This document shows, piece after piece, positions 1 through 64,000 of a stretch of DNA of 64,000 nucleotides (position 1 is its first letter; every line of letters starts with the position of its first letter). The DNA comes from Ischnura elegans. Taxonomy: Eukaryota > Arthropoda > Insecta > Odonata > Coenagrionidae. The translations under genes were made by a program, and so were the position numbers. The notes beneath the pieces are model-generated. The model was not told where the DNA came from. It did not search any database and worked only from the letters and a program-made list of their open reading frames with translations. The DNA lies in the NCBI RefSeq assembly GCF_921293095.1, contig NC_060259.1, positions 3,472,001 through 3,536,000 of the forward strand, given 5' to 3'.

Positions 1-1110
1 ATAATGAGGCAGAATGTAGACGCATGCTAGCCGTGATTGTGGCATTTTAGCTAATGACGATGTTTCGAAGGCGGTCCGGGGGGTTGCCAGGGTTTTTTAT
101 GAGTGTACTGACAACGGTCACAATCATCCAAATGAATTCCTTAGCGATGAGTCATAGGAGAAGGGAAATACTGCTAAAATATGCGAAAACACCGAAGAAC
201 ATGCTATTAACAGAAAAAGAAGAATTTTTTCCCCGGTCTTATAGGAAGCCACGTGAAATTTCGAGGGGTTTTCTTGCATAAAAGGTCTTTGTCTACCTAC
301 AGTAAAAATTCCAGCGATCTAACTGTAGGGGAACAATGAATTTTCCCGTATTACTCACATTTAGATTACCAATTCTGTGTTCTCCACATAGCGGTGCATA
401 GGCGCTGTAATAAGGCATAAGTCGTGTGAATTTCGTAGCCGTACCTTATGGGAAAGTGGTTAAAAAAAATCGGTTTTAGGTGTCCTTGTCCTGGAAGCCA
501 TTTTTTATCTCTACTATTTTGTTAAGAAATGTACATTAAAAAATTTGAAGTTTGATTGCGGGTGTGTTAATGGGGCAGGATAATTGAACATGACGCGTAA
601 ATGTAGCCGACACAATTCCCAGTCCGAATAAATAAAAACGATACAACTCGGATGAATGGTACACGAAATATACCACTTATTAAATAATTTTTATTTTTTT
701 GGGGGGGTCCCAGGGGGTTATCGGGGGATTTTTTGTGCTTGTCCCGTATAACGCGGCATCGTTTACCTTCGATAAAAATTTCGGCTCTTTAGCTTTAGCG
801 CAAGCATGGTTTTTCGACGGTGTCACCCGTTTAAATGAAAAATTCTGCGTTCTCCGGGTAGCGGTACGTAGGGTCACGAAAAAGACGTCTTTCACGTTAA
901 TTTGGTGTCCGTACATTGTCGGTAAGTGGCGAAAAAAAATTCGGAAAAATTTAAAATCGTGTGTTGAGGGAATGCAAACTTCACGGCGGATGTGTTGTAA
1001 GTTACCAAACGTTGTAGGAGTCGCAATTTCAATGGAAATACATAATCGTTAATAACTCGAAATTCTTTCGTCCTTTGGATACATGAAGATAGCCGAAAAA
1101 TTGAATAAAA

Positions 1111-1560
1111 AATCTAGTATCTTGCATAAAAGTGAATTTGTCCTACGATTATTGCAAATTGGTGAAAAAAATTCCGAAATTCGGCCCATAAGAAAAGCAT
1201 TGAAAATTTGAAAAAGTTAAAAAAAATACTTTAAATCAAAATATTGCAAAGAAAACGACACTACAAAATCAACCGAAAAATCTTGTATCTCATACGTGAA
1301 GGACTTATTCCTACAACGATTTAAAGTTGGTTTAAAAAAAATCCAAAGATAGGCCCATAAGAAAAGCATTAGAAATTTAAAAAAATTATAAAAAATACTT
1401 TCAATCAAAATACGGCTAAATGGTTCACATCAAAAAATCGGCCAAAAAATCTAGTTTCCGTCAGTGAAATTTCACGTTCCCGTGACGTTTGCAAGTATGC
1501 GAAGAAAGGATAAAGTTTTAGTCCCATAAGGCTCCAATGTTAATTCGGATCGATATATCT
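1111..1560 (+). repeat. Degenerate ~170-bp subrepeats inside the AT block
   Basis: Three diverged subunits begin at AATCTAGTAT (1111), AATCTTGTAT (1279) and AATCTAGTTT (1448), spaced 168-169 bp apart. Each contains a variant of CCCATAAGAAAAGCATT; the third has CCCATAAGGCTCC. The same organisation recurs in every AT block. A second old internal duplication is visible upstream: AATTCTGTGTTCTCC at 371 and AATTCTGCGTTCTCC at 841, each followed by a TAGCGGT-like stretch, 470 bp apart. Confidence 0.7.
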
Positions 1561-1739
1561 CGAAAACCGATCGACTTTTTCCAGTTTTCGGACTTTTCCC
1601 CTCGATGAATATTTTTTCTCCACGACCTGTAAAATTTTCGTCTTCCCAGCACGTCCGGAAGTGGTCGGGAATTTGTATACGTGAATGAGTGAGTGGTCAA
1701 TGAGCTATCTGTCACACATCGGGTTGTATATAATATAGA

Positions 1740-2847
1740 CTCGCCGCGCTGCGCGCGCTCGTTAGGGGGCTACGCCCCCTAAAACCCCCCCGCATCCGGC
1801 TTCGCCGGCTGCCCCCGCCGGACGGCTTCGCCGTCCCGCCCCCGACTCCTCGGAACGGCTTCGCCGTTCCTCGCCCGGGGTCGGCTTCGCCGCCCAGATA
1901 TCGAGGTAGCCCTGTGACGGAGACCCGCTAGTGCCTCGGAGTGGCATCGCCGTTCATCGTGGAAGGGCGGCTTCGCCGCCCAAGGGTTGGCCTAGTCCCC
2001 CCGAGGCGTCGACTCCTGGGAACGGCATCGCCCTTAACGTGATGGGGCGGCTTCGCCGCCCGAGGTTTACTGTGTCCCCCCGAGCCGTCGACTCCTCCTA
2101 ACGGCTTCGCCGTTCCTCGTCTGTGGGCGGCTTCGCCGCCCATGGGTTATCCGAGTCTCCCCGAGGCGTCGACTCCTGGGAACGGCATCGCCGTTCCTTG
2201 TGATGGGGCGGCTTCGCCGCCCGAGGTTTACTGTGTCCCCCCGAGCCGTCGGCTCCTCGGAACGGCTTCGCCGTTCCTCGTGTATGGGCGGCTTCGCCGC
2301 CCAAGGGTTACCGGCGTCCTCCCCCCTTAAGCCTCCTCGTGATGGGGCGGCTTCGCCGCCCAAGGTTTGCATGTGTCCCCCCGGGAAGTCGACTCCTCTT
2401 TACTTTACTCTGTTTCCCCCCGAGCCATCGGCTCCTCGGAACGGCTTCGCCGTTCCTCGCCTGTGGGCGGCTTCGCCGCCCAAGGGTTATCGGGGCCCTC
2501 CCCCCGTAAGCTTCCGCGGGTTGGGGCGGCTTCGCCGCCCAAGGCTTGCCAGTGTCCCCCCGAGACGTCGACTCCTCGGAACGGCTTCGCCGTTCCTCGA
2601 CTGTGGGCGGCTTTGCCGCCCAAGGGGTATCGGCGCCCTCCCCCCTCGTAAGACACCCATTCGGCTGCTCCACGTGTTGGAGCGGATTTGCCGCCCGAGG
2701 GTTCTCGGAGGTTTTCCGCGCCTCTGACTCCTCGGAATGGTTCCGTCGTTCCTGGGGCGGGGGCAGCATCGCCGCCAAGGTTTTCACTCCTCACAGAGCA
2801 ATGCGTACTACCAGCTATCCCTCATCGTTTACAAAGGCTACCGGGGG
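1740..2847. repeat. Long GC-rich palindrome block (copy at 9894-11001)
   Basis: The block opens with CTCGCCGCGCTGCGC and a 9-bp inverted repeat (TTAGGGGGC-TAC-GCCCCCTAA). It then alternates two small palindromes, GGAACGGCTTCGCCGTTCC and GGGCGGCTTCGCCGCCC, spaced a few tens of bases apart. Each could fold into a 6-8-bp stem with a TTC loop. Spacers often contain CGTCGACTCC or AAGGGTTA. The block ends near CTCACAGAGCAATGCG before the next AT block. Six-frame translation gives proline/arginine-rich frames on both strands, as expected of such repeats, so no protein is called. Confidence 0.9.
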
Positions 2848-5498
2848 ATAATGTGGCAGAATGTAGACGCATGCTAGCCGTGATTGTGGCATTTTAGCTT
2901 ATGACGATGTTTTGAAGGTGGTCCGGGGGGTTTCCAGGGTTTTTTTATGAGTGTAGTGACAACGGTCACAATCATCCAAAAAAATTCCTTAGCGATGAGT
3001 CATAGGAGAAGGGAATTACTGGTGAAATATGCGAAAACACCGAAGAACATGCTATTTACAGAAAAAAATTAATTTTTTTCCCCGGTCTTATAGGAAGCCA
3101 CGTGAAATTTCGAGGGGTTTTCTTGCATAAAAGGTCTTTGTTTACCTACAATAAAAATTCCAGCGATCTAGCTTTAGGGGAACAATGAATTTTCCCGTAT
3201 TACTCACATTTATATTACGAATTCTGTGTTCTCCACATAGCGGTGCATAGGCGCTGTAATAAGGCATAACTGGTGTGAATTTAGTAGCCGTACCTAATGG
3301 GGAAGTGGTTTAAAAAAATCGCTTTTAGGTGTCCTTGTCCTGGAAGCCATTTTATACCCCTACTATTTTGTTAAGAAATGTACATTTAAAAATTTGAAGT
3401 TTTATTGCGGGTGTGTAAATGGGGCAGGATAATTGAACATGACGCGTAAATATAGCCGACACAATTCCCAGTCCGAATAAATAAAAACGATACAACTCGG
3501 ATGAATGGTACAAGAAATATACCACTTATTAAATAATTTTTATTTTTTTGGGGGGGTCCCAGGGGGTTATCGGGGGACATTTTGTGCTTGTCCCGTATAA
3601 CGCGGCATCGTTTACCTTCGATAAAAATTTCGGCTCTTTAGCTGTAGTGTTAGCATGGTTTTTCGACGGTGTCACCCGTTTAAATTCAATATTCTGCGTT
3701 CTCCGGGTAGCGGCACGTAGGGGCACCAAAAAGACGTCACTCACGTTAATTTGGTGTCTGTGCGACGTGTGGAAGTGGCGAAAAAAAAATCCGAAAAAGT
3801 TAAAATCGTGTGTTGAGGGAATGCAAACTTCACGGCGGATGTGTTGTAAGTTACCAAACGTTGTAGGAGTCGCAAATTCAATGAAAATACATAATCGTTA
3901 ATTACTCGAAGTTCGATGAACATGTGGATATCAAAGGATAGCCAAAAAATTAAGAAAAAAATCTAGTATCTTGCATTAAATTGAATTGGTCCTACGATTA
4001 TTGCAAATGTGTCAAAAAAATTCCCAAAGTGAGCCCATAAGAAAAGCATTGGAAATTTTAAATTGTTAAAAAAAATACTTTTAAACAAAAAATTGCAAAG
4101 GAGACCACACCAAAAAATCAACCAAAAAATCTAGTGTCTCATACGTTAGGGACTTATTCCTACAACGATTATGAGTTGGTTTTAAAAAAATCCAAAGATA
4201 GGCCCATAAGAAAAGCATTGGAAATTTAAAAAAATTATAAAAAATACTTTCAATCAAAATATGGAAAAATGTTTCGCATCAAAAAATCGCCCAAAAAATC
4301 TAGTTTCCGTCAGTGAAATTTCATGTTCCCGTGACATTTTTAAGTAGGCAAATAATGGAATATGTTTAAGTCCCATAAGGCTCCTATGTTAATTCGGATC
4401 GATATATCTCGAAAACCGATCGACTTTTTCGAGTTTTCGGACTTTTCCCCCCGATGAATATTTTTTCTCCTCCCACGGTGAAAATGTCGTCTTCCCAGGA
4501 CGTCCGGAAGTGGTCGGGAATTTGTATACGTGAATCAGTGAGTGAGCTATCTGTCACACATCGGGTTGTATATAATATAGACTCGCCGCGCTGCGCCCGC
4601 TCGTTAGGGGGCTACGCCCCCTAAAACCCCCCCGCATCCGGCTTCGCCGGCTGCCCCCGCCGGACGGCTTCGCCGTCCACCCCGCGACTACTCGGAACGG
4701 CTTCGCCGTTCCTCGCCAAGGGGTCGTCTTCGCCGCCCATATATTTAGGCGGTGTTAGAGCGGCTTCGCCGCCCAAGGGTTACACGAGTCCCCCAGAGGC
4801 GTGGACTCCTGGGAACGGCATCGCCCTTCCTCGTGGCGGGGCGGCTTCGCCGCCCAAGGTTTACCGGTGTTCCCCCGCGCCTTCGACAACTCGGAACGGC
4901 TGCGCCGTTCCTCGCCCGTGGGCGGCTTCACCGCCCAAGGGTTATCTCGTCGTAATGGGGCGGCTTCGCCTCCCACGGTTTACCTATTTCCCCGAGCCAT
5001 CGCCTCCTCGGAACGGCTGCGCCGTTCCTCGCGTGGGGGCGGCTTCGCCGCCCAAGGGTTATCGGCGCCCTCCCTCGTAAGCTTCCTCGTAATGGGGCGG
5101 GTTCGCCGCCCAGGGTTTACCCGTGTTCCCCCGAGGCGTCGAATCCTGGGAACGGCGTCGCCCTTCCACGTGATGGGGCGGCTTCGCCGCCCAAGGTTTA
5201 CAGTGTCCCCCCGAGCCGTCGACTCCTCGGAACGGCGTCGCCGTTCCTCGTCTGTGGGCGGCTTCGCCGCCCAAGGGTTATCGGCGCCCTCCCCCCTCGT
5301 AAGACACCCATTCGGCTGCTCCACGTGTTGGAGCGGATTTGCCGCCCGAGGGTTCTCGGAGGTTTTCCGCGCCTCTGACTCCTTGGAATGTCTCCGTCGT
5401 TCCTGGGGCGGGGGCAGCTTCGCCGCCAGGGTTTTCACTCCTCACAGAGCAATGCGTACTACCAGATAACCCCCATCATTTACAAAGGCTACCGGGGG
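2848..5498 (+). repeat. Array monomer B (beta AT block + short GC block)
   Basis: The beta-type AT block is 2848-4581 (1734 bp), clearly diverged from alpha by many substitutions and small indels. The short GC block is 4582-5498 (917 bp). It matches monomer E at an offset of 8154. A G-to-C variant in the GTGAATGAGTGAG segment near 4537 is seen here but not in E. Confidence 0.92.
4582..5498. repeat. Short GC-rich palindrome block (copies at 7238, 12736, 15392)
   Basis: This 917-bp variant has the same opening and closing sequence as the long block but a different internal series of palindromes, including loop variants such as GGCTGCGCC and GGCTTCACCGCC. Copies lie at 7238-8154, 12736-13652 and 15392-16308 and are almost identical to one another. 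It occurs downstream of both alpha and beta AT blocks. Confidence 0.9.
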
Positions 5499-8154
5499 AT
5501 AATGAGGCAGAATGTAGACGCATGCTAGCCGTGATTGTGGCATTTTAGCTAATGACGATGTTTCGAAGGCGGTCCGGGGGGTTGCCAGGGTTTTTTATGA
5601 GTGTACTGACAACGGTCACAATCATCCAAATGAATTCCTTAGCGATGAGTCATAGGAGAAGGGAAATACTGCTAAAATATGCGAAAACACCGAAGAACAT
5701 GCTATTAACAGAAAAAGAAGAATTTTTTCCCCGGTCTTATAGGAAGCCACGTGAAATTTCGAGGGGTTTTCTTGCATAAAAGGTCTTTGTCTACCTACAG
5801 TAAAAATTCCAGCGATCTAACTGTAGGGGAACAATGAATTTTCCCGTATTACTCACATTTAGATTACCAATTCTGTGTTCTCCACATAGCGGTGCATAGG
5901 CGCTGTAATAAGGCATAAGTCGTGTGAATTTCGTAGCCGTACCTTATGGGAAAGTGGTTAAAAAAAATCGGTTTTAGGTGTCCTTGTCCTGGAAGCCATT
6001 TTTTATCTCTACTATTTTGTTAAGAAATGTACATTAAAAAATTTGAAGTTTGATTGCGGGTGTGTTAATGGGGCAGGATAATTGAACATGACGCGTAAAT
6101 GTAGCCGACACAATTCCCAGTCCGAATAAATAAAAACGATACAACTCGGATGAATGGTACACGAAATATACCACTTATTAAATAATTTTTATTTTTTTGG
6201 GGGGGTCCCAGGGGGTTATCGGGGGATTTTTTGTGCTTGTCCCGTATAACGCGGCATCGTTTACCTTCGATAAAAATTTCGGCTCTTTAGCTTTAGCGCA
6301 AGCATGGTTTTTCGACGGTGTCACCCGTTTAAATGAAAAATTCTGCGTTCTCCGGGTAGCGGTACGTAGGGTCACGAAAAAGACGTCTTTCACGTTAATT
6401 TGGTGTCCGTACATTGTCGGTAAGTGGCGAAAAAAAATTCGGAAAAATTTAAAATCGTGTGTTGAGGGAATGCAAACTTCACGGCGGATGTGTTGTAAGT
6501 TACCAAACGTTGTAGGAGTCGCAATTTCAATGGAAATACATAATCGTTAATAACTCGAAATTCTTTCGTCCTTTGGATACATGAAGATAGCCGAAAAATT
6601 GAATAAAAAATCTAGTATCTTGCATAAAAGTGAATTTGTCCTACGATTATTGCAAATTGGTGAAAAAAATTCCGAAATTCGGCCCTTAAGAAAAGCATTG
6701 AAAATTTGAAAAAGTTAAAAAAAATACTTTAAATCAAAATATTGCAAAGAAAACGACACTACAAAATCAACCGAAAAATCTTGTATCTCATACGTGAAGG
6801 ACTTATTCCTACAACGATTTAAAGTTGGTTTAAAAAAAATCCAAAGATAGGCCCATAAGAAAAGCATTAGAAATTTAAAAAAATTATAAAAAATACTTTC
6901 AATCAAAATACGGCTAAATGGTTCACATCAAAAAATCGGCCAAAAAATCTAGTTTCCGTCAGTGAAATTTCACGTTCCCGTGACGTTTGCAAGTATGCGA
7001 AGAAAGGATAAAGTTTTAGTCCCATAAGGCTCCAATGTTAATTCGGATCGATATATCTCGAAAACCGATCGACTTTTTCCAGTTTTCGGACTTTTCCCCT
7101 CGATGAATATTTTTTCTCCACGACCTGTAAAATTTTCGTCTTCCCAGCACGTCCGGAAGTGGTCGGGAATTTGTATACGTGAATGAGTGAGTGGTCAATG
7201 AGCTATCTGTCACACATCGGGTTGTATATAATATAGACTCGCCGCGCTGCGCCCGCTCGTTAGGGGGCTACGCCCCCTAAAACCCCCCCGCATCCGGCTT
7301 CGCCGGCTGCCCCCGCCGGACGGCTTCGCCGTCCACCCCGCGACTACTCGGAACGGCTTCGCCGTTCCTCGCCAAGGGGTCGTCTTCGCCGCCCATATAT
7401 TTAGGCGGTGTTAGAGCGGCTTCGCCGCCCAAGGGTTACACGAGTCCCCCAGAGGCGTGGACTCCTGGGAACGGCATCGCCCTTCCTCGTGGCGGGGCGG
7501 CTTCGCCGCCCAAGGTTTACCGGTGTTCCCCCGCGCCTTCGACAACTCGGAACGGCTGCGCCGTTCCTCGCCCGTGGGCGGCTTCACCGCCCAAGGGTTA
7601 TCTCGTCGTAATGGGGCGGCTTCGCCTCCCACGGTTTACCTATTTCCCCGAGCCATCGCCTCCTCGGAACGGCTGCGCCGTTCCTCGCGTGGGGGCGGCT
7701 TCGCCGCCCAAGGGTTATCGGCGCCCTCCCTCGTAAGCTTCCTCGTAATGGGGCGGGTTCGCCGCCCAGGGTTTACCCGTGTTCCCCCGAGGCGTCGAAT
7801 CCTGGGAACGGCGTCGCCCTTCCACGTGATGGGGCGGCTTCGCCGCCCAAGGTTTACTGTGTCCCCCCGAGCCGTCGACTCCTCGGAACGGCTTCGCCGT
7901 TCCTCGTCTGTGGGCGGCTTCGCCGCCCAAGGGTTATCGGCGCCCTCCCCCCTCGTAAGACACCCATTCGGCTGCTCCACGTGTTGGAGCGGATTTGCCG
8001 CCCGAGGGTTCTCGGAGGTTTTCCGCGCCTCTGACTCCTTGGAATGTCTCCGTCGTTCCTGGGGCGGGGGCAGCTTCGCCGCCAGGGTTTTCACTCCTCA
8101 CAGAGCAATGCGTACTACCAGATAACCCCCATCATTTACAAAGGCTACCGGGGG
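5499..8154 (+). repeat. Array monomer C (alpha AT block + short GC block)
   Basis: The alpha AT block is 5499-7237 and is almost identical to that of monomer A at offset 5498. The short GC block is 7238-8154 and is almost identical to that of monomer B. This monomer therefore looks like a recombinant between A-type and B-type units. A private change (CCCTTAAG for CCCATAAG) occurs near 6684. Confidence 0.92.
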
Positions 8155-11001
8155 ATAATGAGGCAGAATGTAGACGCATGCTAGCCGTGATTGTGGCATT
8201 TTAGCTAATGACGATGTTTCGAAGGCGGTCCGGGGGGTTGCCAGGGTTTTTTATGAGTGTACTGACAACGGTCACAATCATCCAAATGAATTCCTTAGCG
8301 ATGAGTCATAGGAGAAGGGAAATACTGCTAAAATATGCGAAAACACCGAAGAACATGCTATTAACAGAAAAAGAAGAATTTTTTCCCCGGTCTTATAGGA
8401 AGCCACGTGAAATTTCGAGGGGTTTTCTTGCATAAAAGGTCTTTGTCTACCTACAGTAAAAATTCCAGCGATCTAACTGTAGGGGAACAATGAATTTTCC
8501 CGTATTACTCACATTTAGATTACCAATTCTGTGTTCTCCACATAGCGGTGCATAGGCGCTGTAATAAGGCATAAGTCGTGTGAATTTCGTAGCCGTACCT
8601 TATGGGAAAGTGGTTAAAAAAAATCGGTTTTAGGTGTCCTTGTCCTGGAAGCCATTTTTTATCTCTACTATTTTGTTAAGAAATGTACATTAAAAAATTT
8701 GAAGTTTGATTGCGTGTGTTTTAATGGGGCAGGATAATTGAACATGACGCGTAAATGTAGCCGACACAATTCCCAGTCCGAATAAATAAAAACGATACAA
8801 CTCGGATGAATGGTACACGAAATATACCACTTATTAAATAATTTTTATTTTTTTGGGGGGGTCCCAGGGGGTTATCGGGGGATTTTTTGTGCTTGTCCCA
8901 TATAACGCGGCATCGTTTACCTTCGATAAAAATTTCGGCTCTTTAGCTTTAGCGCAAGCATGGTTTTTCGACGGTGTCACCCGTTTAAATGAAAAATTCT
9001 GCGTTCTCCGGGTAGCGGTACGTAGGGTCACGAAAAAGACGTCTTTCACGTTAATTTGGTGTCCGTACATTGTCGGTAAGTGGCGAAAAAAAATTCGGAA
9101 AAATTTAAAATCGTGTGTTGAGGGAATGCAAACTTCACGGCGGATGTGTTGTAAGTTACCAAACGTTGTAGGAGTCGCAATTTCAATGGAAATACATAAT
9201 CGTTAATAACTCGAAATTCTTTCGTCCTTTGGATACATGAAGATAGCCGAAAAATTGAATAAAAAATCTAGTATCTTGCATAAAAGTGAATTTGTCCTAC
9301 GATTATTGCAAATTGGTGAAAAAAATTCCGAAATTCGGCCCATAAGAAAAGCATTGAAAATTTGAAAAAGTTAAAAAAAATACTTTAAATCAAAATATTG
9401 CAAAGAAAACGACACTACAAAATCAACCGAAAAATCTTGTATCTCATACGTGAAGGACTTATTCCTACAACGATTTAAAGTTGGTTTAAAAAAAATCCAA
9501 AGATAGGCCCATAAGAAAAGCATTAGAAATTTAAAAAAATTATAAAAAATACTTTCAATCAAAATACGGCTAAATGGTTCACATCAAAAAATCGGCCAAA
9601 AAATCTAGTTTCCGTCAGTGAAATTTCACGTTCCCGTGACGTTTGCAAGTATGCGAAGAAAGGATAAAGTTTTAGTCCCATAAGGCTCCAATGTTAATTC
9701 GGATCGATATATCTCGAAAACCGATCGACTTTTTCCAGTTTTCGGACTTTTCCCCTCGATGAATATTTTTTCTCCACGACCTGTAAAATTTTCGTCTTCC
9801 CAGCACGTCCGGAAGTGGTCGGGAATTTGTATACGTGAATGAGTGAGTGGTCAATGAGCTATCTGTCACACATCGGGTTGTATATAATATAGACTCGCCG
9901 CGCTGCGCGCGCTCGTTAGGGGGCTACGCCCCCTAAAACCCCCCCGCATCCGGCTTCGCCGGCTGCCCCCGCCGGACGGCTTCGCCGTCCCGCCCCCGAC
10001 TCCTCGGAACGGCTTCGCCGTTCCTCGCCCGGGGTCGGCTTCGCCGCCCAGATATCGAGGTAGCCCTGTGACGGAGACCCGCTAGTGCCTCGGAGTGGCA
10101 TCGCCGTTCATCGTGGAAGGGCGGCTTCGCCGCCCAAGGGTTGGCCTAGTCCCCCCGAGGCGTCGACTCCTGGGAACGGCATCGCCCTTAACGTGATGGG
10201 GCGGCTTCGCCGCCCGAGGTTTACTGTGTCCCCCCGAGCCGTCGACTCCTCCTAACGGCTTCGCCGTTCCTCGTCTGTGGGCGGCTTCGCCGCCCATGGG
10301 TTATCCGAGTCTCCCCGAGGCGTCGACTCCTGGGAACGGCATCGCCGTTCCTTGTGATGGGGCGGCTTCGCCGCCCGAGGTTTACTGTGTCCCCCCGAGC
10401 CGTCGGCTCCTCGGAACGGCTTCGCCGTTCCTCGTGTATGGGCGGCTTCGCCGCCCAAGGGTTACCGGCGTCCTCCCCCCTTAAGCCTCCTCGTGATGGG
10501 GCGGCTTCGCCGCCCAAGGTTTGCATGTGTCCCCCCGGGAAGTCGACTCCTCTTTACTTTACTCTGTTTCCCCCCGAGCCATCGGCTCCTCGGAACGGCT
10601 TCGCCGTTCCTCGCCTGTGGGCGGCTTCGCCGCCCAAGGGTTATCGGGGCCCTCCCCCCGTAAGCTTCCTCGTGTTGGGGCGGCTTCGCCGCCCAAGGCT
10701 TGCCAGTGTCCCCCCGAGACGTCGACTCCTCGGAACGGCTTCGCCGTTCCTCGACTGTGGGCGGCTTTGCCGCCCAAGGGGTATCGGCGCCCTCCCCCCT
10801 CGTAAGACACCCATTCGGCTGCTCCACGTGTTGGAGCGGATTTGCCGCCCGAGGGTTCTCGGAGGTTTTCCGCGCCTCTGACTCCTCGGAATGGTTCCGT
10901 CGTTCCTGGGGCGGGGGCAGCATCGCCGCCAAGGTTTTCACTCCTCACAGAGCAATGCGTACTACCAGCTATCCCCCATCGTTTACAAAGGCTACCGGGG
11001 G
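8155..11001 (+). repeat. Array monomer D (copy of A)
   Basis: The alpha AT block is 8155-9893 and the long GC block is 9894-11001. It repeats monomer A exactly 8154 bp downstream with a few substitutions, for example GCGTGTGTTTTAATGG near 8713 where A has GCGGGTGTGTTAATGG, and CCCATATAAC near 8898. Confidence 0.92.
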
Positions 11002-13652
11002 ATAATGTGGCAGAATGTAGACGCATGCTAGCCGTGATTGTGGCATTTTAGCTTATGACGATGTTTTGAAGGTGGTCCGGGGGGTTTCCAGGGTTTTTTT
11101 ATGAGTGTAGTGACAACGGTCACAATCATCCAAAAAAATTCCTTAGCGATGAGTCATAGGAGAAGGGAATTACTGGTGAAATATGCGGAAACACCGAAGA
11201 ACATGCTATTTACAGAAAAAAATTAATTTTTTTCCCCGGTCTTATAGGAAGCCACGTGAAATTTCGAGGGGTTTTCTTGCATAAAAGGTCTTTATTTACC
11301 TACAATAAAAATTCCAGCGATCTAGCTTTAGGGGAACAATGAATTTTCCCGTATTACTCACATTTATATTACGAATTCTGTGTTCTCCACATAGCGGTGC
11401 ATAGGCGCTGTAATAAGGCATAACTGGTGTGAATTTAGTAGCCGTACCTAATGGGGAAGTGGTTTAAAAAAATCGCTTTTAGGTGTCCTTGTCCTGGAAG
11501 CCATTTTATACCCCTACTATTTTGTTAAGAAATGTACATTTAAAAATTTGAAGTTTTATTGCGGGTGTGTAAATGGGGCAGGATAATTGAACATGACGCG
11601 TAAATATAGCCGACACAATTCCCAGTCCGAATAAATAAAAACGATACAACTCGGATGAATGGTACAAGAAATATACCACTTATTAAATAATTTTTATTTT
11701 TTTGGGGGGGTCCCAGGGGGTTATCGGGGGACATTTTGTGCTTGTCCCGTATAACGCGGCATCGTTTACCTTCGATAAAAATTTCGGCTCTTTAGCTGTA
11801 GTGTTAGCATGGTTTTTCGACGGTGTCACCCGTTTAAATTCAATATTCTGCGTTCTCCGGGTAGCGGCACGTAGGGGCACCAAAAAGACGTCACTCACGT
11901 TAATTTGGTGTCTGTGCGACGTGTGGAAGTGGCGAAAAAAAAATCCGAAAAAGTTAAAATCGTGTGTTGAGGGAATGCAAACTTCACGGCGGATGTGTTG
12001 TAAGTTACCAAACGTTGTAGGAGTCGCAAATTCAATGAAAATACATAATCGTTAATTACTCGAAGTTCGATGAACATGTGGATATCAAAGGATAGCCAAA
12101 AAATTAAGAAAAAAATCTAGTATCTTGCATTAAATTGAATTGGTCCTACGATTATTGCAAATGTGTCAAAAAAATTCCCAAAGTGAGCCCATAAGAAAAG
12201 CATTGGAAATTTTAAATTGTTAAAAAAAATACTTTTAAACAAAAAATTGCAAAGGAGACCACACCAAAAAATCAACCAAAAAATCTAGTGTCTCATACGT
12301 TAGGGACTTATTCCTACAACGATTATGAGTTGGTTTTAAAAAAATCCAAAGATAGGCCCATAAGAAAAGCATTGGAAATTTAAAAAAATTATAAAAAATA
12401 CTTTCAATCAAAATATGGCAAAATGTTTCGCATCAAAAAATCGCCCAAAAAATCTAGTTTCCGTCAGTGAAATTTCATGTTCCCGTGACATTTTTAAGTA
12501 GGCAAATAATGGAATATGTTTAAGTCCCATAAGGCTCCTATGTTAATTCGGATCGATATATCTCGAAAACCGATCGACTTTTTCGAGTTTTCGGACTTTT
12601 CCCCCCGATGAATATTTTTTCTCCTCCCACGGTGAAAATGTCGTCTTCCCAGGACGTCCGGAAGTGGTCGGGAATTTGTATACGTGAATGAGTGAGTGAG
12701 CTATCTGTCACACATCGGGTTGTATATAATATAGACTCGCCGCGCTGCGCCCGCTCGTTAGGGGGCTACGCCCCCTAAAACCCCCCCGCATCCGGCTTCG
12801 CCGGCTGCCCCCGCCGGACGGCTTCGCCGTCCACCCCGCGACTACTCGGAACGGCTTCGCCGTTCCTCGCCAAGGGGTCGTCTTCGCCGCCCATATATTT
12901 AGGCGGTGTTAGAGCGGCTTCGCCGCCCAAGGGTTACACGAGTCCCCCAGAGGCGTGGACTCCTGGGAACGGCATCGCCCTTCCTCGTGGCGGGGCGGCT
13001 TCGCCGCCCAAGGTTTACCGGTGTTCCCCCGCGCCTTCGACAACTCGGAACGGCTGCGCCGTTCCTCGCCCGTGGGCGGCTTCACCGCCCAAGGGTTATC
13101 TCGTCGTAATGGGGCGGCTTCGCCTCCCACGGTTTACCTATTTCCCCGAGCCATCGCCTCCTCGGAACGGCTGCGCCGTTCCTCGCGTGGGGGCGGCTTC
13201 GCCGCCCAAGGGTTATCGGCGCCCTCCCTCGTAAGCTTCCTCGTAATGGGGCGGGTTCGCCGCCCAGGGTTTACCCGTGTTCCCCCGAGGCGTCGAATCC
13301 TGGGAACGGCGTCGCCCTTCCACGTGATAGGGCGGCTTCGCCGCCCAAGGTTTACTGTGTCCCCCCGAGCCGTCGACTCCTCGGAACGGCTTCGCCGTTC
13401 CTCGTCTGTGGGCGGCTTCGCCGCCCAAGGGTTATCGGCGCCCTCCCCCCTCGCAAGACACCCATTCGGCTGCTCCACGTGTTGGAGCGGATTTGCCGCC
13501 CGAGGGTTCTCGGAGGTTTTCCGCGCCTCTGACTCCTTGGAATGTCTCCGTCGTTCCTGGGGCGGGGGCAGCTTCGCCGCCAGGGTTTTCACTCCTCACA
13601 GAGCAATGCGTACTACCAGATAACCCCCATCATTTACAAAGGCTACCGGGGG
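11002..13652 (+). repeat. Array monomer E (copy of B)
   Basis: The beta AT block is 11002-12735 and the short GC block is 12736-13652. It repeats monomer B at offset 8154. The beta block appears only in B and E, so it marks the phase of the higher-order repeat. Confidence 0.92.
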
Positions 13653-16308
13653 ATAATGAGGCAGAATGTAGACGCATGCTAGCCGTGATTGTGGCATTTT
13701 AGCTAATGACGATGTTTCGAAGGCGGTCCGGGGGGTTGCCAGGGTTTTTTATGAGTGTACTGACAACGGTCACAATCATCCAAATGAATTCCTTAGCGAT
13801 GAGTCATAGGAGAAGGGAAATACTGCTAAAATATGCGAAAACACCGAAGAACATGCTATTAACAGAAAAAGAAGAATTTTTTCCCCGGTCTTATAGGAAG
13901 CCACGTGAAATTTCGAGGGGTTTTCTTGCATAAAAGGTCTTTGTCTACCTACAGTAAAAATTCCAGCGATCTAACTGTAGGGGAACAATGAATTTTCCCG
14001 TATTACTCACATTTAGATTACCAATTCTGTGTTCTCCACATAGCGGTGCATAGGCGCTGTAATAAGGCATAAGTCGTGTGAATTTCGTAGCCGTACCTTA
14101 TGGGAAAGTGGTTAAAAAAAATCGGTTTTAGGTGTCCTTGTCCTGGAAGCCATTTTTTATCTCTACTATTTTGTTAAGAAATGTACATTAAAAAATTTGA
14201 AGTTTGATTGCGTGTGTTTTAATGGGGCAGGATAATTGAACATGACGCGTAAATGTAGCCGACACAATTCCCAGTCCGAATAAATAAAAACGATACAACT
14301 CGGATGAATGGTACACGAAATATACCACTTATTAAATAATTTTTATTTTTTTGGGGGGGTCCCAGGGGGTTATCGGGGGATTTTTTGTGCTTGTCCCGTA
14401 TAACGCGGCATCGTTTACCTTCGATAAAAATTTCGGCTCTTTAGCTTTAGCGCAAGCATGGTTTTTCGACGGTGTCACCCGTTTAAATGAAAAATTCTGC
14501 GTTCTCCGGGTAGCGGTACGTAGGGTCACGAAAAAGACGTCTTTCACGTTAATTTGGTGTCCGTACATTGTCGGTAAGTGGCGAAAAAAAATTCGGAAAA
14601 ATTTAAAATCGTGTGTTGAGGGAATGCAAACTTCACGGCGGATGTGTTGTAAGTTACCAAACGTTGTAGGAGTCGCAATTTCAATGGAAATACATAATCG
14701 TTAATAACTCGAAATTCTTTCGTCCTTTGGATACATGAAGATAGCCGAAAAATTGAATAAAAAATCTAGTATCTTGCATAAAAGTGAATTTGTCCTACGA
14801 TTATTGCAAATTGGTGAAAAAAATTCCGAAATTCGGCCCATAAGAAAAGCATTGAAAATTTGAAAAAGTTAAAAAAAATACTTTAAATCAAAATATTGCA
14901 AAGAAAACGACACTACAAAATCAACCGAAAAATCTTGTATCTCATACGTGAAGGACTTATTCCTACAACGATTTAAAGTTGGTTTAAAAAAAATCCAAAG
15001 ATAGGCCCATAAGAAAAGCATTAGAAATTTAAAAAAATTATAAAAAATACTTTCAATCAAAATACGGCTAAATGGTTCACATCAAAAAATCGGCCAAAAA
15101 ATCTAGTTTCCGTCAGTGAAATTTCACGTTCCCGTGACGTTTGCAAGTATGCGAAGAAAGGATAAAGTTTTAGTCCCATAAGGCTCCAATGTTAATTCGG
15201 ATCGATATATCTCGAAAACCGATCGACTTTTTCCAGTTTTCGGACTTTTCCCCTCGATGAATATTTTTTCTCCACGACCTGTAAAATTTTCGTCTTCCCA
15301 GCACGTCCGGAAGTGGTCGGGAATTTGTATACGTGAATGAGTGAGTGGTCAATGAGCTATCTGTCACACATCGGGTTGTATATAATATAGACTCGCCGCG
15401 CTGCGCCCGCTCGTTAGGGGGCTACGCCCCCTAAAACCCCCCCGCATCCGGCTTCGCCGGCTGCCCCCGCCGGACGGCTTCGCCGTCCACCCCGCGACTA
15501 CTCGGAACGGCTTCGCCGTTCCTCGCCAAGGGGTCGTCTTCGCCGCCCATATATTTAGGCGGTGTTAGAGCGGCTTCGCCGCCCAAGGGTTACACGAGTC
15601 CCCCAGAGGCGTGGACTCCTGGGAACGGCATCGCCCTTCCTCGTGGCGGGGCGGCTTCGCCGCCCAAGGTTTACCGGTGTTCCCCCGCGCCTTCGACAAC
15701 TCGGAACGGCTGCGCCGTTCCTCGCCCGTGGGCGGCTTCACCGCCCAAGGGTTATCTCGTCGTAATGGGGCGGCTTCGCCTCCCACGGTTTACCTATTTC
15801 CCCGAGCCATCGCCTCCTCGGAACGGCTGCGCCGTTCCTCGCGTGGGGGCGGCGTCGCCGCCCCAGGGTTATCGGCGCCCTCCCTCGTAAGCTTCCTCGT
15901 AATGGGGCGGGTTCGCCGCCCAGGGTTTACCCGTGTTCCCCCGAGGCGTCGAATCCTGGGAACGGCGTCGCCCTTCCACGTGATGGGGCGGCTTCGCCGC
16001 CCAAGGTTTACTGTGTCCCCCCGAGCCGTCGACTCCTCGGAACGGCTTCGCCGTTCCTCGTCTGTGGGCGGCTTCGCCGCCCAAGGGTTATCGGCGCCCT
16101 CCCCCCTCGTAAGACACCCATTCGGCTGCTCCACGTGTTGGAGCGGATTTGCCGCCCGAGGGTTCTCGGAGGTTTTCCGCGCCTCTGACTCCTTGGAATG
16201 TCTCCGTCGTTCCTGGGGCGGGGGCAGCTTCGCCGCCAGGGTTTTCACTCCTCACAGAGCAATGCGTACTACCAGATAACCCCCATCATTTACAAAGGCT
16301 ACCGGGGG
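13653..16308 (+). repeat. Array monomer F (copy of C)
   Basis: The alpha AT block is 13653-15391 and the short GC block is 15392-16308. It repeats monomer C at offset 8154. Private variants include the altered palindrome GGCGGCGTCGCCGCCCC near 15848. Confidence 0.92.
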
Positions 16309-18048
16309 ATAATGAGGCAGAATGTAGACGCATGCTAGCCGTGATTGTGGCATTTTAGCTAATGACGATGTTTCGAAGGCGGTCCGGGGGGTTGCCAGGG
16401 TTTTTTATGAGTGTACTGACAACGGTCACAATCATCCAAATGAATTCCTTAGCGATGAGTCATAGGAGAAGGGAAATACTGCTAAAATATGCGAAAACAC
16501 CGAAGAACATGCTATTAACAGAAAAAGAAGAATTTTTTCCCCGGTCTTATAGGAAGCCACGTGAAATTTCGAGGGGTTTTCTTGCATAAAAGGTCTTTGT
16601 CTACCTACAGTAAAAATTCCAGCGATCTAACTGTAGGGGAACAATGAATTTTCCCGTATTACTCACATTTAGATTACCAATTCTGTGTTCTCCACATAGC
16701 GGTGCATAGGCGCTGTAATAAGGCATAAGTCGTGTGAATTTCGTAGCCGTACCTTATGGGAAAGTGGTTAAAAAAAAATCGGTTTTAGGTGTCCTTGTCC
16801 TGGAAGCCATTTTTTATCTCTACTATTTTGTTAAGAAATGTACATTAAAAAATTTGAAGTTTGATTGCGGGTGTGTTAATGGGGCAGGATAATTGAACAT
16901 GACGCGTAAATGTAGCCGACACAATTCCCAGTCCGAATAAATAAAAACGATACAACTCGGATGAATGGTACACGAAATATACCACTTATTAAATAATTTT
17001 TATTTTTTTGGGGGGGTCCCAGGGGGTTATCGGGGGATTTTTTGTGCTTGTCCCGTATAACGCGGCATCGTTTACCTTCGATAAAAATTTCGGCTCTTTA
17101 GCTTTAGCGCAAGCATGGTTTTTCGACGGTGTCACCCGTTTAAATGAAAAATTCTGCGTTCTCCGGGTAGCGGTACGTAGGGTCACGAAAAAGACGTCTT
17201 TCACGTTAATTTGGTGTCCGTACATTGTCGGTAAGTGGCGAAAAAAAATTCGGAAAAATTTAAAATCGTGTGTTGAGGGAATGCAAACTTCACGGCGGAT
17301 GTGTTGTAAGTTACCAAACGTTGTAGGAGTCGCAATTTCAATGGAAATACATAATCGTTAATAACTCGAAATTCTTTCGTCCTTTGGATACATGAAGATA
17401 GCCGAAAAATTGAATAAAAAATCTAGTATCTTGCATAAAAGTGAATTTGTCCTACGATTATTGCAAATTGGTGAAAAAAATTCCGAAATTCGGCCCATAA
17501 GAAAAGCATTGAAAATTTGAAAAAGTTAAAAAAAATACTTTAAATCAAAATATTGCAAAGAAAACGACACTACAAAATCAACCGAAAAATCTTGTATCTC
17601 ATACGTGAAGGACTTATTCCTACAACGATTTAAAGTTGGTTTAAAAAAAATCCAAAGATAGGCCCATAAGAAAAGCATTAGAAATTTAAAAAAATTATAA
17701 AAAATACTTTCAATCAAAATACGGCTAAATGGTTCACATCAAAAAATCGGCCAAAAAATCTAGTTTCCGTCAGTGAAATTTCACGTTCCCGTGACGTTTG
17801 CAAGTATGCGAAGAAAGGATAAAGTTTTAGTCCCATAAGGCTCCAATGTTAATTCGGATCGATATATCTCGAAAACCGATCGACTTTTTCCAGTTTTCGG
17901 ACTTTTCCCCTCGATGAATATTTTTTCTCCACGACCTGTAAAATTTTCGTCTTCCCAGCACGTCCGGAAGTGGTCGGGAATTTGTATACGTGAATGAGTG
18001 AGTGGTCAATGAGCTATCTGTCACACATCGGGTTGTATATAATATAGA
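16309..18048 (+). repeat. Array monomer G, AT block only (array edge)
   Basis: This is an alpha-type AT block of 1740 bp (one extra A near 16770) ending in TATATAATATAGA. In monomers A-F the same bases are followed by CTCGCCGCGC and the GC block. Here they are followed by unrelated sequence (TACCTCAACAG), so this is the right edge of the array. Confidence 0.92.
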
Positions 18049-18243
18049 TACCTCAACAGCTTTGAAAAATGAAAGCATTGTATTACATACATTTATACAT
18101 TGTTATCAATGGGCCATAAGATACCAATTCTTATAAAATAATCTAAGCAAATCTTTACAGTTCTTCGTTAAAACTTTCGCGGGTGCTCGTCATGTTGAAT
18201 TAAATCTTTTGGACTGGGTCGCCGCGTCAGATTTTGGGTGGCC

Positions 18244-18328: not shown

Positions 18329-18999
18329 TCAGGTGGTGGGGGGAGGGGAATGAGAGGTTGGAGGAGTAGGTTGTCGATTATTTTTGCCGATTACGGGTTG
18401 CCAAGTACGGCTGATTTTAAGGCCAGTGTCTCTGTTAAAGTTGTTTTCCTCCTCTTTAGATATTTCTATTGCTTCTCTTACGAGTCTCTGTTTAAAGCCT
18501 TTCACTCTCGCAACAATTTTTGCTTCCTTAAGGTCGATTGTGTGGCCCAGCGCTGCGTGTTCGGCTACTGCGGACTTCGTTGACTGCCCCAGTCGAATTG
18601 CTCTCTCGTGCTCCTCTAGACGTGTTTTAACCGATCTGCCTGTTTCGCCGATGTAGTTCTTCCCACAGGTCTGGCAAGGAATTCGGTATACCCCTTCGAC
18701 TTGTAGTGGAGTTCTATCCTTGATGGTTTTCAGTAGATGCTTTATCTGTACGTGAGGCGAGAATATTGTCCTTATCTGGAATTTGCGTAGGATATTTCCT
18801 ATTCTGTCAGTCGTCCCCTTAATGGCAGGAAGGCTTTCTTCTGGTCGCTGAGGTCATTAACAGAGGAGTTCGCTGCTTCTGCGGTGTTGATTTTGATCTC
18901 GTTGTTCTTTCTGATAACTTTATTAAATGTTCGAGAGATAACTCTGTCGTCGAATTCATTTGCCCGTAGAATGGCCTTTAGCTTCTTCCTCTCTTCGAC
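18329..18999 (-). pseudogene. Penelope-like GIY-YIG endonuclease fragment
   Basis: Reading on the minus strand from about 18999 gives VEERKKLKAILRANEFDDRV and then, after one frameshift near 18825, a continuous frame to a TGA at 18329-18331. This second frame contains GVYRIPCQTCGKNYIGETGR, with the GVY...YIG signature and the cysteine pair typical of Penelope endonucleases. It is followed by the conserved EEHERAIR, AVAEHA and GHTIDL segments and a C-terminal REAIEI...TWQPVI stretch. In Penelope elements this domain nicks the target DNA. The frameshift and missing N-terminus make it non-functional. Confidence 0.85.
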
Positions 19000-32321: not shown

Positions 32322-32960
32322 CCAATGTCTCACGATAGAAGAGGATAACTCCAGTTCAGATCAAAGGGGATGTAATCGTAAAATTAAATTTCAAAGATCA
32401 TTACCTATTCCATTGCGTTGAAATTTATCCAAAAATCACACCCCAACATGATAGAAATCCAAGAGCATTTTACAACAGATCTTGCCAATATTCACTTAAC
32501 CATGTCCAGCATACAAAGCCAATGTCTCATGCTATACGCGACTGATGAATTATAGCATAAATTTCACTGTGAAGAAAAAAAATAAGATAGGTTCCCATTC
32601 GAAGAGGTCATATTCATAGAATGTAATTAGAGTTCTTACCTATTTCATTGAGTTGATCTTTATCCAACATTCACACCTCAACGTGATAGAAATTGAAGAG
32701 CTTTTTTCAATAGAATACGCCAATTTTCACTTAACAAAATACACCATACACGTCCAATGTCTCATGCTATATGTGATTGATGAATAATAGCATATATTAC
32801 ACTATGAAGAAAAAAAGCAAATGGGATAAGGTGCACAATCAAAGAGGTTCTAGTCATAGAATTTAATTAAAATAATTACCTATTCCATAGAGTTGACCAC
32901 GTCCAACATTCACACCTCAACATGATAGAAATTCAATTCAAGGGCACATCCTTCCTTACT
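32322..32960 (+). repeat. Diverged ~237-bp tandem repeat (about 3 copies)
   Basis: Landmark TTACCTATT(C/T)CAT recurs at 32401, 32636 and 32876 (spacing 235 and 240 bp). It is followed each time by a CACACCYCAACRTGATAGAAAT-like segment. CCAATGTCTCA recurs at about 32322, 32519 and 32754. Identity between copies is moderate, so the array is old. No coding potential is seen. Confidence 0.7.
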
Positions 32961-36875: not shown

Positions 36876-39800
36876 TTATATTTTATTGAATGCCGCTACA
36901 TCAACAGATTGAACTAAGTCTTCAAATTCCTGAATTTCTTCAGTAAGGAGATCAACTGAGATTTTTTCATCTTCAACCACACACATAATCTGGAGCTTCT
37001 TGATACCAAAGGCCAATGGAACTAATTTAGCTATAAGAGCAAGAGAAAAATTTATGAAGCAATAATAAAATATCACAAGCACATTTGACATCATTAATAA
37101 ACTTGGGGAAATTCTGATACTCACAGGCACCCCATACTAAACCATCCTTCTGAATAGACCTGACTTTCTCCTCCATCTGCTTCATGTCAGTTTCATCATC
37201 CCAAGGTTTGACATCTAATACAATACTAGACTTAGCTATAAGAGCAGGTTTCTTTGATTTCTTAGCAGCATATTCTTTCAACCTTTCTTCTCGGATCTTC
37301 GCCGCCTCAGCATCCTGCAATGAATAGAATAAAATTGTGGATGAAACTTTCCCACTTGCTCATTCAATGGGCCATCCTCAGAGACCCTATATCGCAGCCA
37401 CTTAAAATCATTTGGCACATCGAAAGGAAAAAAAAACAAAAACATTCTTCATTCAGCAACATTATATTTCCATATCTGTATATAAAATAAATATATAAAA
37501 TTGGGCCTCGTGGAGCAATGCGTTAAAGCTTTGCCAGTTAAAGGAGACTTCATCAAGCATCTCATATAGAAATTATCGATTTTAACTCTGAAAGTAGCTT
37601 AGAACTTTCCTGAGGAGATCAGCTAGACACTGATTGGAATCATTCTTCGGTCCATTCCATAAAAATGGGTAACTTCTGAAAAAAAATAGTCTTTTAAATT
37701 TAATTTATTATGCCATTACTGTCCTCTTATAACACTATATTAAGAATATTTACTAGGAATTTAAGTTAAAAACATTACAATATGAAGTTAACCTAGCTTT
37801 ACAGTTGTCTCTTCATCAGCTGTTCAAAAATTACAATTTTCATGCCAAGCCAAAGCTTAAATAAATAGTATAGTATATATCTGTCTTCATTATACTAACA
37901 TTAAAATATAGAACCAAATAAGAGTTTCTTTCACCAAGTTTTATTTATTTTACAATTATAAAATAAACTGTGCATAAAACATTGTGCTTAAAAACAAATG
38001 TTTCATTGTCCTGTACGTAGCATAAAGTAGATAAATTTCTTCCTTCAGCATATTTCTTGACAGACAGCAACTTTAAAAATGATTTTGCAAACAGCTTATG
38101 TCTAAAACTAAATGCTTAAGGCTCCCGGATACCTTGACCAAAAACTACGCTGCAGACGTCTAGGCAGATTCGTCTGAGGCCTCTGTTATTCTATGCACAA
38201 AACATTTGAATGCTTACTCACGAAGAAGAAACATCGATATTTGAAAAGATCGTCGTAATTTTTCATTTCTCGTTTTTCACACTGCAATATTGACCACGGA
38301 AGTACACTTTATTCAGCAAAATTGGCTGCCTATTACGGCGTGTATGATAATGGAACCCAATTTTTTTTACGTTCTTTTTAAACGATAATCTTTTGTCTTC
38401 ATATAAATCCATGCCATTTTAATATACTCCTAATAATAGCGACACTAAGTCAATCTATGCGAACCTCTGCAAGCTATTTTTGCGTTCTCATCGGCAGCAA
38501 CATTTTCCCGTTCACATCGCTCTCAGCCACTGAGCGAGTCTCAGCGTGCGGGAGAAGGGGAAATGGAGGGGGAAAGCGCTTGCACGGAGTCTGTTGCCTT
38601 CAGTTTGCCGGCAGCCGCCGAGTAGAATGTTATGGTATTGCTCTTGCTACGTGAGGGTTGCTTTTATATGTGTCATACGCAATTCGGAGCCAAATTTTAA
38701 TCTAGTTCAACAACACACTCAGGGACAGTAATTGATTCACGGTAGACGCGCAGAACACCACATACTATTTAACAATGCATGATCCTATTGCCAAAATACT
38801 GCCATACCAGGATGATTTTTTCCGTGAATCTTTAGTTCCGAAGTTATTACAAAAAGACATATGAATACAACCAAGATGCATTTCCCACATTACATGCGTG
38901 GAGATGTACTTCGTACATTTACTATCGGTAATACCGGTTAATTCACAGTGGGGAGGATTGCTACAAATGACCCTGGTCAGTTCATATCCACTTCAGTACT
39001 GCATTGTACCCTGATACATCAGTTCATTTCGAGAGCAAAATTTTCCTCTCATCGGTGTAATCTTCCTTGCCATAATTTTATACGAAAAATAAGATAAATT
39101 ATATTAATTCTGCTTAAAATGAAAGATTAGCTTTACATTTATGATTCTCGAATGTTTATTTTTAAGAAATTCATTAGTTTAAATGCCTAAAACTATGTAA
39201 CTAATATAATTCTTGTTAGTTCGTGTCACGTCATAGATGACGCATCGTGTACCAGCGTGCATATTTAAATCCATGTGTTCTATTACCGAAATTTTCAATT
39301 TTCAGTAATTGAAGTTTTTTCTAACGTGCAAGTCAAGAACTCATGGACAACTTGTACTATTCATGATTCCCACGTACAAGATAATGATATAATTTTTCAG
39401 TGAAATGAGTGTCGTTTTTTGGATACTTAAAGATAGATAAAATATTTTAGGACTAGCTTAGTGTCTCTCATTATTTTAAACTTAAACAGAATATCATATC
39501 GCACACTATATCATTGATTCAGGGATCCATAATTCTGGAAAGTGGCAACAGGATGCACGAATGAGGAAAGGATTCCGCACTCGTGTCATCTCAATCTACG
39601 CAACACCGCATATTTTGTATTTTGCTGCATAAAAATGTGATAATTTGATTCTCATCTACCCACTGTCCAATTTATCTCTCGTCAATCCTCAGACCCTTTG
39701 TTTTTACTACAATTTCGCTCGCAGTTCCATCATTATCAACTAAGCCTTATAAACCGAAAAAATGGCCATTTGTTTATTTGAAACAAATACCCGTGAAAAT

Positions 39801-55824: not shown

Positions 55825-55829
55825 CCAAA

Positions 55830-63457: not shown

Positions 63458-64000
63458 TCTATATTATATACAACCCGATGTGTGACAGATACCTCACTCA
63501 CTGACCACTCATTCACGTATACAAATTCCCGACCACTTCCGGACGTCCTGGGAAGACGACATTTTCACCGTGGGAGGAGAAAAAATATTCATCGGGGGGA
63601 AAAGTCCGAAAACTCGAAAAAGTCGATCGGTTTTCGAGATATATCGATCCGAATTAACATTGGAGCCTTATGGGACTTAAACATATTCCATTATTTGCCT
63701 ACTTAAAAATGTCACGGGAACATGAAATTTCACTGACGGAAACTAGATTTTTTGGGCGATTTTTTGATGAGAAACATTTTGCCATATTTTGATTGAAAGT
63801 ATTTTTTATAATTTTTTTAAATTTCCAATGCTTTTCTTATGGGCCTATCTTTGGATTTTTTTAAAACCAACTCATAATCGTTGTAGGAATAAGTCCCTAA
63901 CGTATGAGACACTAGATTTTTTGGTTGATTTTTTGGTGTGGTCGCCTTTGCAATTTTTTGTTTAAAAGTATTTTTTTTAACAATTTAAAATTTCCAATGC
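63458..64000 (-). repeat. Inverted AT-block copy of the 5' array family
   Basis: Its reverse complement matches the end of the AT block, stopping at the same TATATAATATAGA bases as the array edge at 18048. It resembles the beta type (CACGGTGAAAATGTCGTC, CATTTTTAAGTAGGC) but retains the AGTGGTCA segment of alpha, so it is a third variant. It runs off the window end, so its full length and any GC block are unknown. Confidence 0.92.

Follow-up and report, generated by a model that had tools for sequence, protein, structure and literature searches.

What is the kilobase-scale tandem repeat that opens the 64,000-nucleotide (nt) stretch of Ischnura elegans DNA analysed here (C19:3472001-3536000; hereafter the window)? 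An earlier note, made from the letters of the window, described a trimeric higher-order repeat of exactly 8154 base pairs (bp) and proposed a large undescribed satellite family. Our analysis indicates, with a probability of about 0.9, that the array consists of non-autonomous Helitrons on the minus strand, stacked head to tail upon one another; a RepHel partner would have mobilised them, and the stack would have grown by the steps considered below. Searches covered the assembly of 1,722,721,009 bases in 110 contigs (ioIscEleg1.1; 1,723 megabases (Mb) in 110 scaffolds, scaffold N50 123.6 Mb, HiFi reads assembled with hifiasm, as summarized in PMC9975421).

The 8154-bp repetition itself is real. 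Positions 1-8154 and 8155-16308 align without a gap and with 19 mismatches in 8154 (identity at sampled unrelated shifts, 0.252; maximum, 0.269), and all seven monomer starts in the earlier note (1, 2848, 5499, 8155, 11002, 13653 and 16309) are exact. Its statement that copies differ by substitutions only holds between the two full copies, which are separated by 19 substitutions and zero indels, but not for 16309-18048, which departs from the second copy by 4 mismatches and one gap position. The array reaches well beyond the window: in 40 kilobases (kb) fetched upstream it starts 22.6 kb before the window, and it stops at window position 18048, spanning about 40.6 kb in all (C19:3449429-3490048).

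The boundaries of the array define its unit. Its first base lies two bases into a GC-rich block and its last is the final base of an AT-rich block; because the array starts and stops at those block edges, the natural unit is a GC block followed by an AT block, not the AT-plus-GC monomer proposed before. Cut in this phase, at a junction ATATAGA/CTCGCC that occurs at 11 places in the array (slashes mark joints and borders), the repeat resolves into only two unit types read on the minus strand: P, of 2842 bp, and Q, of 2656 or 2657 bp. After a 6-kb stretch, ten complete units follow one another in the order P Q P Q P Q Q P Q Q (window orientation). Identity is at least 99.5% within either type, and between P and Q it is 90-91% for the GC blocks (gaps left out) and 91.5-91.8% for the AT blocks. 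The 8154-bp period is thus P-Q-Q, and a second period of 5498 bp is P-Q. The trimer is confined to two P-Q-Q blocks; upstream of these the period is a P-Q dimer, and then come more diverged, partly truncated units. What had been taken for a third monomer kind, C, is the AT block of one Q plus the GC block of the next, and the trimeric higher-order monomer is actually two subfamilies divided at an unsuitable phase. The blocks of opposite composition are real, but together they make up one transposon, AT-rich in its 5' part and GC- and hairpin-rich in its 3' part.

In the window, all units of the array lie on the minus strand. The 5' AT-rich part of a Q-type unit occupies 1..1739, its 3' part lying upstream (whole unit, C19:3471083-3473739). 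It is followed by a P-type non-autonomous Helitron unit of 2842 bp at 1740..4581, with its 5' end TCTATATTATATACAACCCG at 4581, its 3' end ..GCGCGGCGAG at 1740 and its GC-rich 3' block at 1740..2841. Cut in the natural phase, the remainder comprises Q-type units at 4582..7237 and 7238..9893 (2656 bp each), a P-type unit at 9894..12735 (2842 bp), a Q-type unit at 12736..15391 (2656 bp) and the outermost 5' unit, a Q of 2657 bp, at 15392..18048. The outer 5' boundary of the array, at 18048..18049 on the minus strand, reads ..GGTA / TCTATATT.., that is, A/TC.

The ends of the units resemble those of rolling-circle transposons. Canonical Helitrons have a 5' TC, a 3' CTRR and a palindrome of 16-20 nt situated about 11 bp before the 3' terminus, and insert between A and T without target-site duplication, as outlined in PMC4067079. 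A P/Q unit runs 5'-TCTATATTATATACAACCCG ... TTAGGGGGCGTAGCCCCCTAACGAGCGCGCGCAGCGCGGCGAG-3' on the minus strand, with a 3' hairpin and then ...GCGAG, and in both types its 5' terminus (TCTATATT..) begins with the canonical TC. Terminal inverted repeats are absent from the P/Q units (2 of 20), and neighbouring units are joined 3' to 5' with zero extra bases.

These termini are dispersed through the genome. Counting termini of 30-50 bases at up to 3 mismatches, which is our measure of copy number, we found 613 5' ends and 499 matches to the 50-base end of the GC block, that is, 3' ends; the GC block itself matched at 58 or more sites spread over nine contigs, with 40 scored out of 2054 candidates. 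C19 appears over-represented in this scored sample, an excess to which we attach no weight. Search patterns for termini and junctions differed in length and strictness, which makes ratios between counts a guide only, and reversed-pattern controls gave 0 for 5' ends, 3' ends, the GC-block end and junctions alike. Border bases were tallied among the matches listed, comprising 100 of the 613 5' ends, all exact, and 36 exact 3' ends. The 100 exact 5' ends lie on at least 18 contigs (C1-C17 and C19). With a search pattern that excludes CGAG/ joins and any flank with C at the fourth base back, the base before TC was A in 84, T in 9, G in 6 and C in 1; A also preceded TC in 24 of 37 distinct 4-base flanks. 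On the other side, where only ends with a second flank base other than C were tallied, T followed GAG at 35 of 36 ends, 4 of the 35 being joins into a same-family 5' end on C5. A further 64 listed places with one mismatch in the 3' end, mostly head-to-tail joins, had T in 61 and C in 3.

Inspection of both flanks of ten dispersed copies gave the same border. The AT side was an external border in six (one of them, on C11, inside sister-family sequence) and in the remaining four it ran into the end of a further unit or of a sister element. All eight external 5' borders read A/TC, namely those of the six dispersed copies, of the window array and of a separate copy on the plus strand, which begins at an A/TC boundary within the window (63458..64000), runs past it to about C19:3538566 and is joined head-to-tail at its 3' end to a sister family. 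On the GC side, one of the ten dispersed copies was flanked by other sequence, three followed the same family and six a sister family, whose ends include TCCTATCTATATACAGCCC. For one copy, on C8, an empty site could be recognized: once rejoined, its flanks correspond across the insertion point to a dispersed host repeat, of which 40 scored copies match, and in six aligned host-repeat copies only the length of a (TA)n run varies there. By these borders the P/Q family inserts between A and T without target-site duplication; at the C8 site a short TA duplication is possible.

Several borders show additional patterns. In one array on C5, four 3' ends (C5:2354250, 2359894, 2362695 and 2365496) are joined as GAG/TATTATA, lacking the TCTA of the next 5' end, and a fifth (C5:2357097) reads GAG/TCTATAA; the four joins look as if an insertion had hit TCTA^TATT and had later been multiplied. 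TCTA precedes 5 of the 100 listed 5' ends (C2:119742719, C9:111471916, C14:2484954, C17:4358228 and C19:7182986), consistent with insertion into TCTA^TA of another copy. Six copies with an identical TACA flank are spread over about 1.1 Mb of C6 (11646587-12727748), possibly a segmentally duplicated block.

We identified a candidate autonomous partner through its Rep domain. The Helitron_like_N profile had 119 matches in the genome, some of them within open frames as long as 1925 codons. On C11, an element of 24,748 bp (26193947-26218694; nested insertions are possible within that length) carries a RepHel open reading frame (ORF) at 26210512-26215959. This frame contains GLPHAHI and YLFKY, which we take to be the HUH and YxxxY motifs. 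Its C-terminal 930 residues match PIF1 (3e-51), 928 residues align with Helraiser (PDB 7lcc; E 3.4e-137), and its N-terminal part has a weak match to a herpes tegument protein at 1.4e-5, just over the cut-off. An autonomous partner with an HUH Rep and a PIF1-type helicase, the combination that marks the Helitron superfamily, is present in this genome.

The element is embedded among the repeats under study. Its 5' end TCCCGTCTATATACAGCGGGATGTGTGAC directly follows a window-family 3' end at 26193946, and its 3' end ..AAGGGGGCGGAGCCCCCTAGCGAGCTACAGCGAG at 26218694 is directly followed by a window-family unit, with zero extra bases on either side. All four loci with a 1816-codon RepHel frame (C11, C3 and two on C4) begin with TCCCGTCTATATACAGCGGGATGTGTGAC directly after a ..GCGAG end, which belongs to the window family at C3 and to a related one at C4; their 5' terminus, TCCCGTC.., again starts with TC. 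The distance from this 5' end to the Rep domain is 18,747 bases at the C3 and C4 loci and 18,710 on C11. Compared with a window unit, the RepHel element shows 76.7% identity across 360 columns of its 5' part and 86% identity across 51 columns of its 3' region, the 3' alignment leaving off 7 and 15 bases before the two ends. Judged by these comparisons, the P/Q units appear to share their termini with the RepHel partner, which probably mobilises them in trans.

The units themselves look non-coding. A Pfam search of five unit ORFs at E 0.01 returned zero matches, and the longest ATG-started ORF encodes 174 amino acids in P and 125 in Q. At the gathering score, Rfam had no match in the window; a permissive search of 1700-4700 for a known RNA in the unit gave six matches, all below the gathering score and treated as chance. 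The GC block is rich in hairpins, with 18 non-overlapping stem-loops of at least 6 bp in P and 13 in Q (shuffled means 1.5 and 1.3), whereas the AT blocks have 3 and 3 (shuffled 2.4 and 2.5); the baseline is 50 mononucleotide shuffles, which neither preserve dinucleotides nor allow for the internal tandem repeat. Most of the GC-block stem-loops centre on GGCTTCGCC, and they are not independent because they recur with internal repeats of about 80 bp. Folded as DNA, the GC block reaches -288 kcal/mol, an absolute value without a shuffled baseline at this length. The hairpin nearest the 3' end, TTAGGGGGC-GTA-GCCCCCTAA in the P unit, appears to be the subterminal palindrome that a Helitron should carry; a role of the remaining hairpins as spare terminators is a guess.

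Head-to-tail joining is common in the family. Junctions of the P/Q type number 341 genome-wide at up to 3 mismatches (33-base pattern), whereas head-to-head junctions number 0 in a search with a somewhat stricter 40-base pattern, tail-to-tail joins lying outside that search. The C11 array mixes the 24.7-kb RepHel element with units of about 3 kb. In the C19 array, every diverged or truncated unit is found toward the 3' end, at the lower coordinates, and the P/Q series occupies the 5' border. Kinship was assessed in an unrooted, undated tree of 24 AT blocks (matches of more than 1400 bases; shorter ones dropped), in which distance from the relatives sampled does not give an age. The P units cluster with the copy that begins at window position 63458 (support 0.915), their nearest relative among the 24 compared, and the Q units are nearest to a copy at C5:71.58 Mb; among four diverged units of the array, one groups with C19:115.6 Mb (1.000) and one with C19:115.95 Mb (0.993).

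Several observations weigh against a stack of Helitrons assembled in this way. The 3' terminus is ..GCGAG in P, in Q and in the C11 RepHel element, not CTRR, and the 21-nt subterminal palindrome of P/Q stops 22 nt before the 3' end, and a similar one in the RepHel element about 16 nt before it, against a canonical spacing of about 11. No A precedes TC at 16 of the 100 listed 5' ends, C follows GAG at 3 of the 64 one-mismatch places, and the (TA)n host site of the C8 copy is compatible with a short TA duplication. At the outer 3' end of the array (C19:3449429) the border is not clean, since the final two bases are missing and a truncated sister element directly adjoins it. The C11 RepHel frame has one in-frame stop, and the RepHel 3' end was seen at one of four loci; the shared 3' end rests on that locus because the three other fetched stretches did not reach it. 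In the tree, the third diverged unit groups weakly with C14 (0.42), and the fourth (full position 18534) falls next to the P clade (1.000), not elsewhere. Finally, pure A/T targeting predicts head-to-head joins at the border too, and the search with the 40-base pattern found none. Because the partner and the ends fit and CTRR fails, we place the P/Q family in the Helitron superfamily, not among canonical Helitrons.

How would such a stack of Helitrons grow? A unit inserted at A/T leaves A/TC at its 5' border and would thereby offer a fresh A/T target, at which later copies could join. Because the border regenerates its own target, growth would proceed in one direction, which fits both the mixture of subfamilies and the greater divergence and truncation of the units on the 3' side. 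Within the young part of the array, P-Q and P-Q-Q blocks would then have been copied locally, through either unequal exchange or rolling-circle replication, and such multiplication would account for the 8154-bp period. Since no head-to-head joins were found, the model further needs either a target that is read directionally or read-through during rolling-circle replication. We tentatively propose, at rather less than even odds, a self-renewing directional target: the A/TC border would be read one way as a preferred target, and autonomous and non-autonomous copies would accrete into a time-ordered stack that seeds satellite-like DNA. The 341 head-to-tail junctions against 0 head-to-head, together with the diverged 3'-side units, fit this proposal.

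A rolling-circle concatemer is the alternative that survives best, and we regard it as possible, if somewhat doubtful. Here a circular or multi-unit (end-bypass) intermediate is copied repeatedly, and one event lays down P-Q-P-Q-P-Q-Q. Junctions that are exact and head-to-tail, 341 against 0, would be expected, as would P and Q units that are each at least 99.5% identical within their type, and head-to-tail circles and tandem arrays are among the Helitron features reported in PMC5876387 and PMC5148889. However, a single array holds units whose nearest relatives lie at different loci, and the C11 array combines a RepHel element with much shorter units; mixed kinship and mixed composition therefore require several insertions besides the copying of one circle of one element. 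Recent local multiplication is needed in either case, given the identity within P and within Q.

Improbable, by comparison, is a true satellite family that evolves by unequal crossing-over and contains Helitron-derived sequence by chance. The local amplification of P-Q and P-Q-Q does resemble unequal exchange, and Helitron-linked satellites are described in oyster (PMC8268682, in the part concerned with such repeats). Yet exact 5' ends occur on at least 18 contigs, mostly at A/T borders, one copy has an empty site, the units of one array are not mutual nearest relatives, and the array is only about 40 kb long. The family is not confined to long homogenised tandem arrays but dispersed, with external A/T ends and units kin to different loci.

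A derivative of a Penelope-like retroelement is very improbable. Tandem copies are typical of Penelope-like elements, a GIY-YIG-like ORF recognized by eye (18332-18853, minus strand) adjoins the array, and an 861-codon reverse transcriptase ORF lies near a C6 copy. The unit, however, stops at 18048, before the Penelope-like ORF, and its ends, target and partner are those of a Helitron; the lack of Pfam matches in the five unit ORFs also argues against it, weakly as regards GIY-YIG, since Pfam missed the 18332 ORF too. This origin was dropped once Helitron-type ends, an A/T target and a RepHel partner had been found. Equally remote is an assembly duplication of a single 8154-bp stretch, which the near-identity of the copies (19 differences per 8154) might suggest, because the assembly was made from HiFi reads with hifiasm (PMC9975421), substitutions separate the copies, the exact junction occurs eleven times inside the array (341 junctions in all), and hundreds of other places show these termini and this junction.

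Among known systems, Helraiser and other bat Helitrons share RepHel homology with the damselfly family, but the latter ends in CGAG rather than CTRR, its RepHel element measures about 24.7 kb (one locus measured) and its copies often stand in mixed head-to-tail arrays. PMC5876387 refers to precise head-to-tail junctions of Helitrons and to their tandem arrays. According to PMC5148889 and PMC5876387, tandem Helitrons have been reported from a bat, from Drosophila, and from rice and maize, and earlier work had already raised both explanations of the arrays. For plant tandem (centromeric) Helitrons, Xiong et al. 2016, as cited in PMC5148889, PMC5876387 and PMC8268682, explained the arrays by rolling-circle amplification. 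The plant arrays likewise consist of Helitron units in tandem, but as characterized in PMC5148889 and PMC8268682 they are truncated copies without 3' ends, whereas damselfly P/Q units have both ends, mix subfamilies and occur on at least 18 contigs.

DINE-1/HINE, the non-autonomous Helentrons treated in PMC4067079, are likewise insect non-autonomous rolling-circle elements with a RepHel partner. As portrayed there, they have T flanks, sub-terminal inverted repeats and an endonuclease-fused partner; by contrast, the damselfly units have A/T borders and no terminal inverted repeats (2 of 20), and the C-terminal 930 residues of the C11 RepHel gave no endonuclease match at E 0.001, which together with the A/T borders sets them apart from Helentrons. 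Helitron-borne satellites of oyster (PMC8268682 and PMC7492417, as far as their accounts of these repeats go) are also tandem repeats linked to rolling-circle transposons, and the damselfly GC block likewise has repeats of about 80 bp; in oyster the tandem monomer sits inside the transposon (PMC8268682), whereas in the damselfly the whole transposon is the monomer. The damselfly repeat is a further example of known tandem Helitrons, with a non-canonical 3' end, CGAG.

The suggestion of a large undescribed satellite family is accordingly right about a kilobase-scale tandem repeat with no description that we could find, but the units are dispersed Helitrons with external A/T ends and one empty site. 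Our literature searches returned no description of the P/Q repeat; curated repeat libraries lay outside these searches and may already catalogue the family. A search on Helitron and Ischnura elegans yielded no damselfly description, the match found concerning oyster (title and abstract), and in the broader damselfly literature the word Helitron appeared in none of the best 15 of 882 matches.

Other sequences lie around the array. The ORF beside its end, at window 18332-18853 on the minus strand, resembles a GIY-YIG-like C-terminal part of a Penelope-like element by eye and has no Pfam match at E 0.001; the reverse transcriptase ORF of 861 codons on C6 (16640660-16643245, plus strand; 1661-4246 of locus L039) matches RVT_1 at 3e-12 and is Penelope-like by eye. 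Upstream of the window, C19:3432001-3437600 holds Polinton/Maverick-like ORFs (polymerase-, integrase plus chromodomain-, protease- and capsid-like, all by eye), and within the window a 570-codon open frame at 42118-43827 (plus strand) looks by eye like a pogo/Tigger transposase. Two exon-like ORFs, one resembling eEF1B (37030-37359, minus strand) and one resembling the first exon of the 75-kDa complex I subunit (55752-56087, plus strand), both by eye, place ordinary genes close to the array. A separate 235-bp tandem repeat of 2.3 copies occupies 32400-32936.

For a fungal case, PMC5148889 raises both insertion at the 5' border and rolling-circle concatemers, and in the part bearing on that case leaves the choice open. 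With 341 near-exact junctions in one genome, and a RepHel element standing in such rows at all four loci examined, population resequencing of this damselfly could separate the two. An apparent large higher-order satellite would here be a pile-up of rolling-circle transposons, in which the choice of phase hides the element.

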